DNA from: Actinomycetes bacterium
GTDB taxonomy: Bacteria; Actinomycetota; Acidimicrobiia; Acidimicrobiales; RAAP-2
Reading direction: 5' to 3'
Length of the DNA stretch: 53,312 nucleotides
Assembly (NCBI GenBank): GCA_021793515.1
Contig: JAJYSP010000019.1
Location: 1 to 53,312 of the forward strand
The first letter of the stretch is position 1. Each line of letters begins with the position of its first letter. Positions 34,302 through 39,124 of the stretch are shown here, in pieces. The notes beneath the pieces were generated by a model. That model made no database searches. It worked only from the letters and a program-made list of their open reading frames with translations, and was not told the DNA's origin. The translations under genes and the position numbers were made by a program.

Positions 34302-34534
34302 TGGCCCTCGACCCGTTCCTGCTCGAGTTGTTGGAGGACCCCGTCGATCACGGTCCGCTGCTGTACCTGGTGGACGCGAGCGTGCTCTACAACCCGCGTC
34401 GCCGCGTCGCCTACGAGGTACGTGGGTCGATCCCTGTTCTCTTGCCCGACGAAGCCCGGGCGGTCTCTGACGAGGAGCACGGTCGGTACGTCGCCGACCC
34501 CGAGGCCCGGTCGACCGGGCGACCCGTCAGCTGA
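34301..34534 (+). CDS. Trm112/UPF0434-like small protein lacking the zinc cysteines
   Basis: A 77-residue protein whose ATG overlaps the manB stop (TGATG), with a strong AGGAGG just upstream. The pattern LLELLEDPVDHGPLLY... NPRRRVAYEVRGSIPVLLPDEA follows the Trm112/YcaR family, in which the first part is normally LLxxLxCPxCxGPL. Here both cysteines are replaced (E-D-P-V-D-H), so the zinc knuckle is gone. Actinobacterial homologues next to manB often show the same loss (recalled, not checked). Function unknown; it may stabilise a methyltransferase partner. Its end overlaps the convergent thiolase gene by 8 bases. Confidence 0.8.
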   Translation: MALDPFLLELLEDPVDHGPLLYLVDASVLYNPRRRVAYEVRGSIPVLLPDEARAVSDEEHGRYVADPEARSTGRPVS

Positions 34535-35735
34535 GTCGCTCGACGATCATGGCCATGCCCTGGCCGCCACCGACGCACATCGTCTCCAGGCCGTAGCGCT
34601 TGTCCCGGTCCTCGAGGCCGTTGAGCAGGGTGGTCATGATGCGCGCACCGGTCATGCCGAAGGGGTGGCCGAGCGCGATGGCCCCGCCGTTCACATTGAG
34701 CTTGTCCCAACTGATGCCGAGGTGCTTAGCCGAAGGGATCACCTGAGCCGCGAAGGCTTCGTTGATCTCGACCAGGTCGATGTCATCGATGCTCAGCCCG
34801 GCGCGAGTCAACGCCTGACGGCTCGCCTCGACGGGGCCGAGGCCCATGATCTCGGGATTGAGTGCGCTCACGCCACTCGAGACGATCCGCGCGAGCGGTG
34901 TTAGCCCGAGCGCCTTGGCACGGGTGTCGCTCATGACGATCACGGCGGCGGCGCCGTCGTTGAGCGGGCAGGCGTTGCCGGCGGTGACGGTGCCGCCTTC
35001 GCGAAAGACCGGGGCCAGGGCGGCCAACTTCTCGAGCGTCGTGCCGGCCCGGGGACCGTCGTCGGTCGCAATCACGCGTCCGTCGGGGAGCGTGACGGGG
35101 ATGATCTCGCGCTCGAAGAAACCATTGTGCTGACTCGCGACGGCGAGCTCTTGGCTGCGCAGGGCGAACTCGTCCATCTCGGCGCGCGACACCTGTTCGT
35201 ACTCGGCGACGTTCTCGGCGGTCTGGCCCATCGCGATGTAGACATCGGCGAGCCCCGGACTCGCAGTCCACGGGTCGCCCGCGCGCGCCGAGCGCGCTGT
35301 GGTACGAGCGATCGCCTCGTCGAAGCGCGGGTTCATTGCCTTGGCGATGTCCGATGCCCCGTTTCCGAAGCGCGAGACGGTCTCAACGCCCGCGGCGATG
35401 AAGACGTCACCCTCGCCGGCCTTGATCGCGTGCGCGGCCATGCGGATCGTCTGGAGCGACGACGAGCAGTAGCGGTTGACCGTGACGCCGGGCACGGTGT
35501 CGAGTCCGGCGAGAATCGCGACGACGCGCGCAATGTTGAATCCTGATTCGCCCGCTGGCTGACCACAACCCATCATGAGGTCGTCAATGGTCGTCGGGTC
35601 CAGCTGGGGCACTTTGGCCAGGACCTCGGCCACGACGTGGGCAGCGAGGTCGTCGGGGCGCATGTCAACGAGCGACCCCTTGAACGCTCGACCGATGGGC
35701 GAACGACCGGTGGCGACAATGACGGCTTCGGGCAT
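34527..35735 (-). CDS. Acetyl-CoA C-acyltransferase (thiolase)
   Basis: A 402-residue thiolase that cleaves or forms 3-ketoacyl-CoA. The nucleophile Cys is in VNRYCSSSLQTI (about 91), the HPFG motif in GGAIALGHPFGMTGAR (about 358-366), and the second catalytic Cys in CVGGGQGMAM (about 389). NEAFAAQ is also present. The order of residues fits the FadA/FadI degradation type better than biosynthetic PhaA, but this is inference. The ATG at 35735 has AAGGAGG 5 bases upstream, and a TATGCT box further up. It follows the riboflavin synthase on the same strand, 68 bases apart, so may be separately transcribed. Confidence 0.94.
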   Translation of the reverse strand: MPEAVIVATGRSPIGRAFKGSLVDMRPDDLAAHVVAEVLAKVPQLDPTTIDDLMMGCGQPAGESGFNIARVVAILAGLDTVPGVTVNRYCSSSLQTIRMAAHAIKAGEGDVFIAAGVETVSRFGNGASDIAKAMNPRFDEAIARTTARSARAGDPWTASPGLADVYIAMGQTAENVAEYEQVSRAEMDEFALRSQELAVASQHNGFFEREIIPVTLPDGRVIATDDGPRAGTTLEKLAALAPVFREGGTVTAGNACPLNDGAAAVIVMSDTRAKALGLTPLARIVSSGVSALNPEIMGLGPVEASRQALTRAGLSIDDIDLVEINEAFAAQVIPSAKHLGISWDKLNVNGGAIALGHPFGMTGARIMTTLLNGLEDRDKRYGLETMCVGGGQGMAMIVERLS

Positions 35736-35766
35736 GGATCCTCCTTGGGGCGGACTAACCCTGGTG

Positions 35767-35772
35767 AGCATA
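35767..35772 (-). promoter_or_regulatory. Possible -10 box for the thiolase gene
   Basis: The minus strand reads TATGCT, which fits TANNNT, 31 bases before the thiolase ATG. The leader would contain the AAGGAGG ribosome site. No clear -35 was found. Confidence 0.35.
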
Positions 35773-35803
35773 GTGAACTGCCGAGGGCCGTTCGATCCAA
35801 GGA

Positions 35804-36313
35804 TCAGGCGACGCCGAGCGGCCCCGCGTCCTCGAAGCCCTGACGCACGCCTTGACCGGCTCGGCGGGCGAGCTGCTCGGGCTCGAACAGCATCCAGTAG
35901 GCGTTGCGGGCGTGTTTGGCCGAGCGGTTCTTGAACACCGAAGCCAAGACCTCGGGGTCGTCGGCCTCATCCTCGTGGACGAAGACCTCGAGGATGGGTG
36001 TCGAGGTGAGCAGTTGGGCCTGCATGATGCCGAGCGCCGCCTCGTGGGCGCACTGCTTGTCGATGGGGGCCTTGCCCGGCATCCCGAGGGCGACCACAAT
36101 CGAGCAGCCGTCGCGTTCGATGAGGTTCTTCGCCGCAACCGCGAGGTCCTTGAATCCGGGGACGGTCTTTGAGACGACGGTGAAACGGCTCCCGTAGCCC
36201 GGACAGTCCGCCAATTCGGCGCGCGCGGCGCCGCCCATGTCGTAGCGGGCGAACATTGTGTCCACCACGCCGATACGCGCCGGGACCTCGTGCTTGGACT
36301 TCTTCTTTCCCAT
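35804..36313 (-). CDS. ribC: Riboflavin synthase, archaeal type
   Basis: A 169-residue protein matching the archaeal riboflavin synthase family (Methanocaldococcus RibC type), which dismutates two 6,7-dimethyl-8-ribityllumazines to riboflavin and 5-amino-6-ribitylaminouracil. Family blocks, in order: IGVVDTMFARYDM (about 12-24), SKTVPGFKDLAVA (about 47), VVALGMPGK (about 71), CAHEAALGIMQAQLL (about 86), EVFVHEDEADD (about 109) and GVRQGFEDAGPL at the end. It is not related to the bacterial two-domain RibE. A basic N-terminal extension (GKKKSK) is additional. The ATG has GGAGG 6 bases upstream, and a TACACT box suggests its own promoter. A bacterial home is unusual. Confidence 0.93.
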   Translation of the reverse strand: MGKKKSKHEVPARIGVVDTMFARYDMGGAARAELADCPGYGSRFTVVSKTVPGFKDLAVAAKNLIERDGCSIVVALGMPGKAPIDKQCAHEAALGIMQAQLLTSTPILEVFVHEDEADDPEVLASVFKNRSAKHARNAYWMLFEPEQLARRAGQGVRQGFEDAGPLGVA

Positions 36314-36329
36314 TGGAACCTCCACTGCC

Positions 36330-36335
36330 AGTGTA
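36330..36335 (-). promoter_or_regulatory. Possible -10 box for the riboflavin synthase gene
   Basis: The minus strand reads TACACT in the 32-base gap after the LLM oxidoreductase gene, 16 bases before the RibC ATG. It allows separate transcription of ribC; no FMN riboswitch-like structure is present. Confidence 0.35.
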
Positions 36336-36345
36336 GGGATGTCGC

Positions 36346-37299
36346 TCAGCGCGGAGCGAGGCCGACGATGGCCTCCTCGAGCGTGACGCCCACCGGCACG
36401 ATCGCGATTGTTGGCATTGAGACGCCGGCCTCGACGTAGCGCTGGACGTGATCGCGACAGGCGTCGAACGAGCCGTGGATGATGAGCGCGTCGACGACGT
36501 CGTCGGGGATCGCCGCGTTGGCGAGTTTGCGGTCGCCCGCGGCCCAGGCGTCCCACATCGGCGTGAGTGCCTCGCCGCGACCGAGCCAGCGGTGGAACTC
36601 GGCGTAGGCGTTGACCGTGAGATACGAGGAGATCATCCGTCGTCCGACGGCCCGCGCGAGGTCGGCGTCCGCGGTGGGCACGACGAACAAGCGGGCCGCT
36701 ATGGCCTTGTCGAGACCCACCTCGGCCCGGCAGGTCGCAACGTCCTCGGCGGCTAGCCAGTTGAGGATCGCTCCGTCGGCGTCCGCGCCGGCCAGGTGCA
36801 GCATGGCCGGACGAAGCGCACCGAGCAGGATGCGAGGGCGCTCGACCACGGGTCGCGAGAGCTTGAAGCCGTGGACGCTGAAAGTGGGGAAGTCCTCGTC
36901 GATCTTCTCGCCGTCGAGTGCCCGATTCACGAAGCGCAGCACGTCGCGCGTGCGTGCGAACGGTCGCTCGTAGGTGATGCCGTTCCAGCGTTCGACGACC
37001 GGCTGGCTCGAAGCGCCGAGCCCGATGGTGAGCCGTTCCCCGGCCACCTCGGCGAGTGCGGCGATGGTCATCGCGAGCAGTCCCGGACCGCGGGTGAAGA
37101 CGGGTGCCACGGCGAGTCCGAGATTGAGTCGCGGCTCCCACGCTGCGGCGAGGGCGAGCGGCGTGAATCCGTCGGCTCCGTCGACCTCGGCCGACCACAC
37201 GTCGGTGTAGCCGAGATCGACCAGTCGCGAGTACCAGGTGCGGTGTTCGCCCAGTGGGACGCCGTCAAAGGGGATGGTGATGCCGTAGCGCGAGGTCAT
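36346..37299 (-). CDS. LLM-class F420-dependent oxidoreductase
   Basis: A 317-residue TIM-barrel flavin/F420 enzyme of the luciferase-like monooxygenase superfamily. The N-terminus YGITIPFDGVPLGEHRTWYSRLVDLGYTDVWSAEVDGADGF fits the F420-dependent branch in overall layout (shown here in parts: barrel strand 1, then the conserved W-S-A-E). Other signs are LNLGLAVAPVFTRGPGLLAM, RLTIGLGASSQPVVERWNG and VPVGV near the end. The substrate is unknown; actinobacteria carry dozens of such enzymes. The cofDE genes in the window supply the cofactor. It follows PPK2 by 21 bases and precedes ribC by 32 bases on the same strand. Confidence 0.88.
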   Translation of the reverse strand: MTSRYGITIPFDGVPLGEHRTWYSRLVDLGYTDVWSAEVDGADGFTPLALAAAWEPRLNLGLAVAPVFTRGPGLLAMTIAALAEVAGERLTIGLGASSQPVVERWNGITYERPFARTRDVLRFVNRALDGEKIDEDFPTFSVHGFKLSRPVVERPRILLGALRPAMLHLAGADADGAILNWLAAEDVATCRAEVGLDKAIAARLFVVPTADADLARAVGRRMISSYLTVNAYAEFHRWLGRGEALTPMWDAWAAGDRKLANAAIPDDVVDALIIHGSFDACRDHVQRYVEAGVSMPTIAIVPVGVTLEEAIVGLAPR

Positions 37300-37320
37300 G
37301 ACCCAGTGTGCCAGAACTCG

Positions 37321-38103
37321 CTAGTGGAGGTAGTCATCGCCGCGGGCCTGGGGCACGTGTACGCCGCGGCGCGCCAGGTCGTGCTCCCAACGGTGGATGA
37401 CCGTCTCGAGCACCGCCACGCGGGCGTAGTGCTTGTCCTCGGCGGCGATGATGTCCCAGTGGGCGTGGCCGTGGTCGGTCCAGTTCAGCATGTCGGCGAG
37501 CGCCTCGAGGTACGCCGGCCGTAGTCCGCGGTTGCGCCAGTCGTCCGGGGTCAGCTTCCAGTGCTTGAGCGGGTTTTTTGCGCGGTCGTTGAACCGTGAC
37601 AGCTGCTCGCCGTCCGAGATGTGCAGCCACAGCTTGACGATCGTCACCCCGTCGTTCACGAGTGAGCGCTCGAACTCGACGATCTCGTCGGCGGAGCGGC
37701 GCACGGTGTCCTGGTCGATCAGTCCCTCGACGCGTTCGACGAGGAGCCGGCCGTACCAGGACCGGTCGAAGACCGTCATCTCGCCCCAGCCCGGCAGGTT
37801 CGGCCAGAACCGCCAGAGGAAGTGGTGGCGCCGTTCCTCGTCGGTGGGCACGCTGATCGGAATGACTCGCACGTGACGCGGGTCCAGGGCGCCGGTGAGA
37901 CGGCGAATCGCGCCGCCCTTGCCGGCCGCGTCGAAGCCCTCGAAAAGCACCACGAGCCCGGGCCCGACCTCGTGGGGCTCGAGCAGCCCCGCCGTCAGCA
38001 GGCGAAGGTGCACGAGTCGGCGCTGGGCGCTGAGGATGCGCGACTCGGATTCCTCGCGCGAGAGTTTCGCCGAGAGGTCGATGCCATCAACGCCTTTGTT
38101 CAT
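37321..38103 (-). CDS. ppk2: Polyphosphate kinase 2 family protein
   Basis: A 260-residue P-loop kinase of the PPK2 family, which uses polyphosphate to phosphorylate nucleotides (or the reverse). Walker A is FEGFDAAGKGG (about 54-64), Walker B DRSWYGR (about 113-119), and the lid region includes RFNDRAKNPLKHWK. The conserved YLEALADMLNWTD and AAEDKHYARVAVLE segments follow. The length fits one-domain class I or III enzymes, so NDP or both NMP/NDP substrates are possible. The ATG has GGAGG only 3 bases upstream, and that GGAGG lies within a perfect inverted repeat. First gene of the minus-strand run LLM-ribC-thiolase. Confidence 0.94.
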   Translation of the reverse strand: MNKGVDGIDLSAKLSREESESRILSAQRRLVHLRLLTAGLLEPHEVGPGLVVLFEGFDAAGKGGAIRRLTGALDPRHVRVIPISVPTDEERRHHFLWRFWPNLPGWGEMTVFDRSWYGRLLVERVEGLIDQDTVRRSADEIVEFERSLVNDGVTIVKLWLHISDGEQLSRFNDRAKNPLKHWKLTPDDWRNRGLRPAYLEALADMLNWTDHGHAHWDIIAAEDKHYARVAVLETVIHRWEHDLARRGVHVPQARGDDYLH

Positions 38104-38106
38104 CGT

Positions 38107-38131
38107 CCTCCACGGTCGTCCACCGTGGAGG
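38107..38131 (-). promoter_or_regulatory. Perfect inverted repeat covering the ppk2 ribosome-binding site
   Basis: Arms CCTCCACGGT and ACCGTGGAGG (10 bases each, perfect) flank a 5-base spacer. On the minus strand the second arm contains the GGAGG ribosome site 3 bases before the ppk2 ATG, so an RNA hairpin would hide it. The repeat could instead be a dimeric protein operator: a TACCCT -10-like box (minus strand) touches its upstream arm. It is the most symmetrical intergenic element in the window. Confidence 0.7.
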
Positions 38132-38168
38132 GTATCGCACGAGGACCGGTCGGTGAGGGCGTGTTTCG

Positions 38169-38174
38169 TAGGAT
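38169..38174 (+). promoter_or_regulatory. Possible -10 box for the phosphodiester glycosidase gene
   Basis: TAGGAT stands 17 bases before the ATG at 38192. The leader would carry the strong GGAGGGAGGAG ribosome site. It faces away from ppk2, so the two genes diverge from this 88-base gap. Confidence 0.4.
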
Positions 38175-38191
38175 TGGTGGAGGGAGGAGCG

Positions 38192-39124
38192 ATGCGCGCG
38201 AGGATCTGGGTGGCGGCACTCGCCGTGGTGGCGCTGTCCCCGTCGATGGCGGCGACGGCGTCGGTGCGCGTGGCGCCGCAGCCGGTGTGTTTGCGCGGTT
38301 CGACCCCCGTGTCCGAGGGACCCGAGGCGATGTGTGCGCGGTGGCGACGGCTCGACCCGTGGTCGCGTGTGCCGACGGTGTTCGCTACCACCTTTCGGCC
38401 CGATCCGCACGCAACGACCGTCGTGTACGCCTCGTGGCTGCGTAGTTCAGCCTCGATCCTCGCGCTCTACCCGGGCTACCTGGGCCCAGGCGCGACGAAT
38501 CTCGCGCGCGGGCCCGAGGAGGTCCCACCCACGGCCCGTGGCCGGCTGCTCGCGACCTTCAACGCCGGCTTCTATGAGGCCGACAGCGCCGCCGGCTTCT
38601 ACGTGAATCGAACGCTCTACTTCCCGATGATTCGCGGTCTCGCGACGGTGGTGCGCTACACCAACGGCACGGTGAACGTGGTGAGTTGGGCCGGGGGACC
38701 GCGCCCGGGTGCGAACGTGGTCATGGCCCGACAGAATCTCCCGCTGCTGGTGGCCAGCGCGCGACCGACGGCCCTGAGCGCGAACAACGGCGCCTGGGGG
38801 TTGACCTTGCACGGAGCACCTGCGGTGTGGCGAACGGCGCTCGGCGTGGACGCGGCGGGCAACCTGATCTACGCGGCGGCCCCCAATCAGACGGCGGCGA
38901 GTCTCGCGCGGGTGATGGTGGACCTGCATTGCGTGCGGGCGATGGAACTCGACATCAACCCCGAGTGGCCGATCTTCGTTGCCTACGCGCGCCCGGGGGC
39001 GGGCGCGCCGTCATTGATCGTGCCCAATCCGAACCAGATCCCGAACCGGTTCCTCTATCCGAGCACGAAGGACTTCTTCGCGGTCTTCCAATCCACCAAC
39101 CCGGGTGAAGCGCAACCGTGGTAG
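38192..39124 (+). CDS. Secreted phosphodiester glycosidase (NAGPA domain) family protein
   Basis: A 310-residue exported protein. A signal peptide spans about 1-25, followed by a NAGPA-type domain (about 120-305): ARGRLLATFNAGFYEADSAAGF, WAGGPRPGANVVMARQNLPLLV, RTALGVDAAGNLIYAAA, and the late ARVMVDLHCVRAMELDINPEW in place of the usual AxxLDGGGS. The family removes GlcNAc from phosphodiesters or acts on wall teichoic-acid-like polymers. The conserved DGGGS is changed to ELDINPEW, so catalysis may differ. The ATG has a strong GGAGGGAGGAG site. The stop overlaps the GTG of the CapA gene, so the two are coupled. Confidence 0.83.
   Translation: MRARIWVAALAVVALSPSMAATASVRVAPQPVCLRGSTPVSEGPEAMCARWRRLDPWSRVPTVFATTFRPDPHATTVVYASWLRSSASILALYPGYLGPGATNLARGPEEVPPTARGRLLATFNAGFYEADSAAGFYVNRTLYFPMIRGLATVVRYTNGTVNVVSWAGGPRPGANVVMARQNLPLLVASARPTALSANNGAWGLTLHGAPAVWRTALGVDAAGNLIYAAAPNQTAASLARVMVDLHCVRAMELDINPEWPIFVAYARPGAGAPSLIVPNPNQIPNRFLYPSTKDFFAVFQSTNPGEAQPW

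Follow-up and report, generated by a model that had tools for sequence, protein, structure and literature searches.

An archaeal-type enzyme as the probable sole riboflavin synthase of an actinobacterial clade

Bacterial RibE (TIGR00187) and the archaeal riboflavin synthase (TIGR01506) carry out the same reaction at the same position in the pathway, and 5-amino-6-ribitylaminouracil is a product released by every riboflavin synthase. In the passages of one report that deal with the two enzymes, the archaeal synthase is a homopentamer, RibE is a homotrimer, and the families are unrelated (PMC10366380). According to an excerpt of a second, RibE trimers in some bacteria are packed within cages of lumazine synthase (RibH) by way of a C-terminal tail (PMC13376624). 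A third, in its passages on roseoflavin-making Streptomyces, describes RibE2 of the roseoflavin cluster as a synthase that comes in addition to the normal one and proposes that it was horizontally acquired (PMC11039241). We searched the open-access literature and found no paper describing a member of the TIGR01506 family as the sole riboflavin synthase of a bacterium. In the uncultured actinobacterium considered here, ribE has very probably been displaced, in an old event, by an archaeal-type enzyme that now serves as the cell's only riboflavin synthase; we infer its catalytic activity, its oligomeric state, and the order of events.

The window is the whole stretch of 53,312 nucleotides that was analyzed. 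The gene lies on its minus strand at positions 35804 to 36313, with the ATG at 36313 and the stop codon ending at 35804, and encodes 169 amino acids. The original prediction had placed it at these coordinates, to which we add the strand, and had also proposed a ribosome site; a GGAGG motif of this kind can be read on the minus strand at 36319 to 36323, 5 bases before the ATG. The prediction's assignment of the protein to the archaeal riboflavin synthase family and not to RibE, and the six conserved blocks that it quoted, are borne out as well. All six blocks occur letter for letter in the translation. TIGR01506 matches the protein over its full length (residues 14 to 166) with 175 bits (E 8.8e-52, NCBIfam cut-off 100.55), and TIGR00187 is absent from the three NCBIfam models that the protein matches up to E 1. 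The best solved structures by sequence include the riboflavin synthase of M. jannaschii (E 6e-52), to which the window protein is 57% identical. A three-row alignment of the window, M. jannaschii, and Streptomyces proteins has 69 invariant columns, and the motif positions are conserved across 114 aligned rows.

The kinship to lumazine synthase that had been proposed holds at the level of fold, as PF00885, a superfamily shared with lumazine synthase, is the protein's single Pfam match, and structural comparison by Foldseek agrees. This common superfamily could be taken to mean that the protein is a second lumazine synthase, or a RibH paralogue with altered function. We consider this extremely unlikely. 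The score of the protein against the lumazine synthase model TIGR00114 is 25.7 bits, far under the cut-off of 84.6, in contrast to its score far over the riboflavin synthase cut-off; a proper RibH is already encoded in the rib operon; and a mere paralogue would leave the pathway without its last enzyme. The predicted structure points the same way. In a single-chain AlphaFold model built from 17 aligned sequences (pLDDT 90.8), the fold is that of the solved archaeal enzyme and is set apart from lumazine synthase: the best Foldseek matches are 2b98 and 2b99 (TM 0.94–0.95 by target, rmsd 1.3), whereas the leading lumazine synthases reach a TM of at most 0.76 with an rmsd of 3 or more (0.76 and 3.7 for the top one). 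Family score, 57% identity, and fold match together mean that the resemblance is not due to chance. Thus, judged by its sequence, the window gene encodes an archaeal-type riboflavin synthase, which would have the catalytic activity of its family and is probably a pentamer.

Whether such an enzyme stands alone depends on the rest of the genome, which is 97.65% complete in 43 contigs. RibE gave no match there at E 0.001, in a search that was positive in 11 of 14 control genomes, although a RibE may conceivably be hidden in a gap of the assembly. One RibH exceeds its cut-off, and it lies inside a rib operon of the order rpe-ribD-ribBA-ribH, in which adjacent genes touch or overlap and leave no space for ribE between ribD and ribBA. 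The same arrangement recurs in relatives, where the names ribD, ribBA, and rpe were assigned by resemblance to the window genome's own genes, with RibD and RibH additionally matched to curated models. Out of 26 archaeal-type genomes, leaving aside the divergent case G654, the ribD locus could be inspected in 23, and G225, G518, and G568 yielded no locus. ribD is followed directly by ribBA, without ribE, in 22 of these 23; the exception, G279, has a ribD with no ribBA beside it. ribE sits between ribD and ribBA in 12 of the 13 RibE genomes seen, the exception being G644 of family f101, whose operon lacks ribE and whose RibE is found on a separate contig (L310 and L311).

An alternative is that the archaeal-type gene is an accessory, raising the capacity for flavin in the service of secondary metabolism, much like RibE2 of the roseoflavin cluster. 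The only match in the plasmid collection does come from Streptomyces camelliae (60% identity), where it lies in a roseoflavin-type cluster together with rosB and ribX. Nevertheless, this reading seems very unlikely to us, as there is no RibE to supplement in the genome itself or in its genus (0 of 37 genomes), most genomes of the genus carry the gene, and the four neighbors tested encode a thiolase, a luciferase-like monooxygenase, a PPK2, and a phosphomannomutase-type enzyme rather than roseoflavin functions. The extra demand for flavin precursors raised by the original prediction is unsupported because no RibE is present for the gene to supplement. Its other suggestion, that the gene may replace RibE, is the one that we grade as most likely, given the absence of a RibE match, the ribE-less operon, and the near-exclusive distribution of the two types.

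That distribution was followed at three levels. Within the genus, an archaeal-type gene scoring above the cut-off is present in 30 of 37 genomes; one further genome has a copy split between two frames, and six show no copy. RibH is found in 36 of the 37. Sampling of the order (298 genomes) gave 45 with the archaeal type, 188 with RibE (counted at E 0.001; 180 exceed the cut-off), and two with both, namely G518, whose RibE match is weak (E 6.6e-4), and G654, whose archaeal-type copy is divergent. Among the 230 RibH-bearing genomes of the order, the archaeal type occurs in 43, RibE in 182, both in two, and neither in seven (Fisher p about 1e-35, a value that ignores relatedness). Because the trees described below need only three changes of type, the independent evidence amounts to a few switches, not 45. 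Across the phylum sample, 9 of 396 genomes pass the TIGR01506 cut-off, and every one of these belongs to family f1 or f28, within this order. Hence the notion that this form might be widespread in actinobacteria, which the original prediction had set against its own claim, applies within one order but not across the phylum. Exchange between the two kinds extends beyond this order, since the control genome of Haloferax volcanii matched RibE and not TIGR01506.

Five genomes of the genus (G001, G008, G013, G014, and G016) keep ribD-ribBA-ribH with neither synthase found. In G001 and G008, the contig ends exactly at the expected site of the gene. G013, which is 97% complete, has the thiolase with 3 kb of upstream sequence and no archaeal-type gene there, and G014, G016, and G019 gave no thiolase match at the strict threshold applied; G019 is without both the archaeal-type gene and RibH. 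G013 and G016 (L156, L157, and L272) are small sister genomes of 1.5 Mb, and G013 has a very long branch in the RpoB tree. The split copy, in G029 (L160:6491-6980), runs across two overlapping frames and reflects either an assembly error or a broken gene. Two contigs both titled palsa_741 (L045 and L075) hold different copies, 87% and 79% identical to the window's; in this metagenome-derived genome they represent either mixed strains or a real duplication. In G654 (family f14), a RibH-like gene is followed by the divergent archaeal-type synthase-like gene (L231:6995-7962), which is without the HEA and GFEDAGP blocks, and a normal ribD-ribE-ribBA-ribH operon is also present; the two genes are possibly a secondary-metabolism pair.

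The surroundings of the gene bear on its transcription and on the integrity of the contig. It belongs to a run of four genes in the same direction on the minus strand: a PPK2-type polyphosphate kinase (37321 to 38109), a luciferase-like monooxygenase (PF00296; 36346 to 37299) directly upstream, the synthase itself, and a thiolase resembling acetyl-CoA acetyltransferase (34527 to 35735) directly downstream. The four may form one transcript because the gaps between them are only 21, 32, and about 70 bases. A -10 box of its own, part of the original prediction, is not supported: a scan of 34400 to 38500 for promoters of the sigma-70-like type found none. Since the synthase starts 32 bases past the stop of the upstream gene on the same strand, co-transcription is at least as likely as a promoter of its own. 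No FMN riboswitch was found in the window or in L151–L154, where the sole Rfam match is a tRNA.

Conservation of this neighborhood was counted among the best 80 of 346 related contigs. In 56 of 71 checkable relatives there, the thiolase follows the synthase within 300 bp. The luciferase-like gene precedes the synthase by no more than 400 bp in 23 of 72, and PPK2 is the immediate upstream neighbor in 9 of 72. Among the families of the order, the neighborhoods of the archaeal-type gene vary, and they therefore carry little information on function. A special tie to coenzyme F420, also suggested at the outset, finds no backing either, as the by-product in question is common to all riboflavin synthases and the luciferase-like neighbor accompanies the gene in only those 23 of 72 relatives. 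A CofG-type F420 gene is present in the genome, on another contig.

Assembly of the genome in many contigs also raises the concern that this one is contamination, or a misbinned archaeal contig. The linkage to the same thiolase in most checkable relatives among those best 80 of 346, together with the presence of the gene in most genomes of the genus, refutes this explanation, whose probability we regard as negligible. A mobile origin is likewise unsupported: no match was found in viral contigs or phages, and among plasmids there is the one Streptomyces record. As for the titles of the best 80 of 346 related contigs, 74 are actinobacterial, five are Acidobacteria or Acidobacteriota, and one is Saccharibacteria. 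Six contigs with titles of the latter kinds (L040, L053, L080, L081, L087, and L110) have the gene at 75–89% identity. L087 and G406, a genome of the window's genus, encode identical proteins, and these six titles are therefore probably wrong.

The history of the replacement can be approached through trees of RpoB and of the pathway enzymes. An RpoB tree built from 30 genomes groups all 19 archaeal-type rows within a single clade of 25 rows (support 100/100), which additionally holds the RibE-bearing family f21, the mixed family f101, and G013. A RibBA tree of 57 rows, with rows outside the order dropped and only six rows of genus g1 kept, gathers all 23 archaeal-type rows into a single clade of 30 rows (100/96), which includes f21, G644, and two rows with neither synthase. 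Five f101 genomes with RibE have RibBA proteins that branch together (100/99), well apart from this clade. Each tree needs three changes of type, and parsimony gives them no direction. The tree of RibE is poorly resolved, including the source of the f21 and f101 proteins. In the archaeal-type tree, which left out some g1 rows and most rows from related contigs, the Streptomyces sequence joined G654, with a warning of long branches; in a version without G654, which left out more, the Streptomyces row was unresolved.

Two accounts of these trees have to be weighed. Because the archaeal-type clade also holds the RibE-bearing f21 and the mixed f101, some lineages probably went back to RibE. The simplest story would be one early replacement, after which most of f101 imported an entire rib operon and G644 acquired a separate RibE. 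Alternatively, the archaeal-type gene could have been gained several times independently within the order. In favor of several gains, f21 keeps ribE within its operon yet nests in the archaeal-type clade on both trees, gene neighborhoods differ between families, and parsimony counts cannot separate gain from loss. Against them, the f101 genera with RibE lie inside the RpoB clade while the RibBA proteins of the five RibE-bearing f101 genomes lie outside the corresponding clade, which fits import of the whole operon, and the ribE-less operon of G644 combined with a RibE on another contig looks like, and fits, a return to RibE. The RibE of f21 may be either a return or an older retention. We hold several independent gains to be possible, if somewhat doubtful. 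To the detailed alternative, in which a single loss of ribE was followed by at least two swaps back (the f101 operon import and the stand-alone RibE of G644), and in which this bacterial pool, rather than archaea directly, was the source of Streptomyces RibE2, we can commit ourselves only tentatively and at less than even chances. On identity, the S. camelliae copy is nearer to the window protein (60%) than to M. jannaschii (50%), the single archaeal sequence on which this comparison of donors rests.

On the reading that we favor, the displacement of ribE would have run as follows. In an ancestor shared by a clade of some ten families within the order, ribE would have been lost from rpe-ribD-ribE-ribBA-ribH and a stand-alone archaeal-type gene would have taken over, with some lineages later regaining RibE. 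In present cells, two molecules of 6,7-dimethyl-8-ribityllumazine supplied by RibH would be dismutated to riboflavin and 5-amino-6-ribitylaminouracil, and the latter would return to RibH. An enzyme of the lumazine synthase fold, probably pentameric, would thus stand in place of the trimeric bacterial RibE. Such an enzyme cannot use packing by a C-terminal tail, and the clade therefore allows one to ask whether packing matters.

What is new is accordingly not a family but an unexpected role for a known one: in a bacterial clade, it presumably acts alone at the last step of vitamin B2 synthesis. Any database that relies on TIGR01506 would already give these proteins the right name. The case is a clean natural example of non-orthologous replacement of an essential vitamin enzyme across domains, in which the gap remains visible in an otherwise intact operon, and the lineages that apparently switched back add to it. 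For annotators, a missing ribE in these bacteria should not be called riboflavin auxotrophy. The bacterial pool is also a possible alternative source of Streptomyces RibE2. If one loss with repeated returns is true, two unrelated folds would be able to replace each other freely, in either direction, in the role of an essential vitamin enzyme.

Compared with the systems introduced at the start, the window protein shares with M. jannaschii RibC (2b98 and 2b99) its fold and the DTMFAR, TVPGFKDL, GMPG, CAHEA, EVFVHE, and RQG...GP blocks. It differs in having a lysine-rich N-terminal extension of about ten residues and in its host, a bacterium with bacterial-type ribD, ribBA, and ribH. To bacterial RibE it is unrelated in sequence, and with RibH, for which the genome has a separate gene, it shares the fold superfamily. 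The synthase of the Streptomyces rosB cluster (RibE2/RibC) is of the same family, 60–63% identical, and likewise actinobacterial, with altered GMPGKA, HEDEA, and GFEDAGP blocks relative to the window protein. In contrast to that enzyme, however, the window gene is not additional to a RibE detectable in its own genome, and its four Pfam-tested neighbors encode other enzymes, not rosB or ribX.
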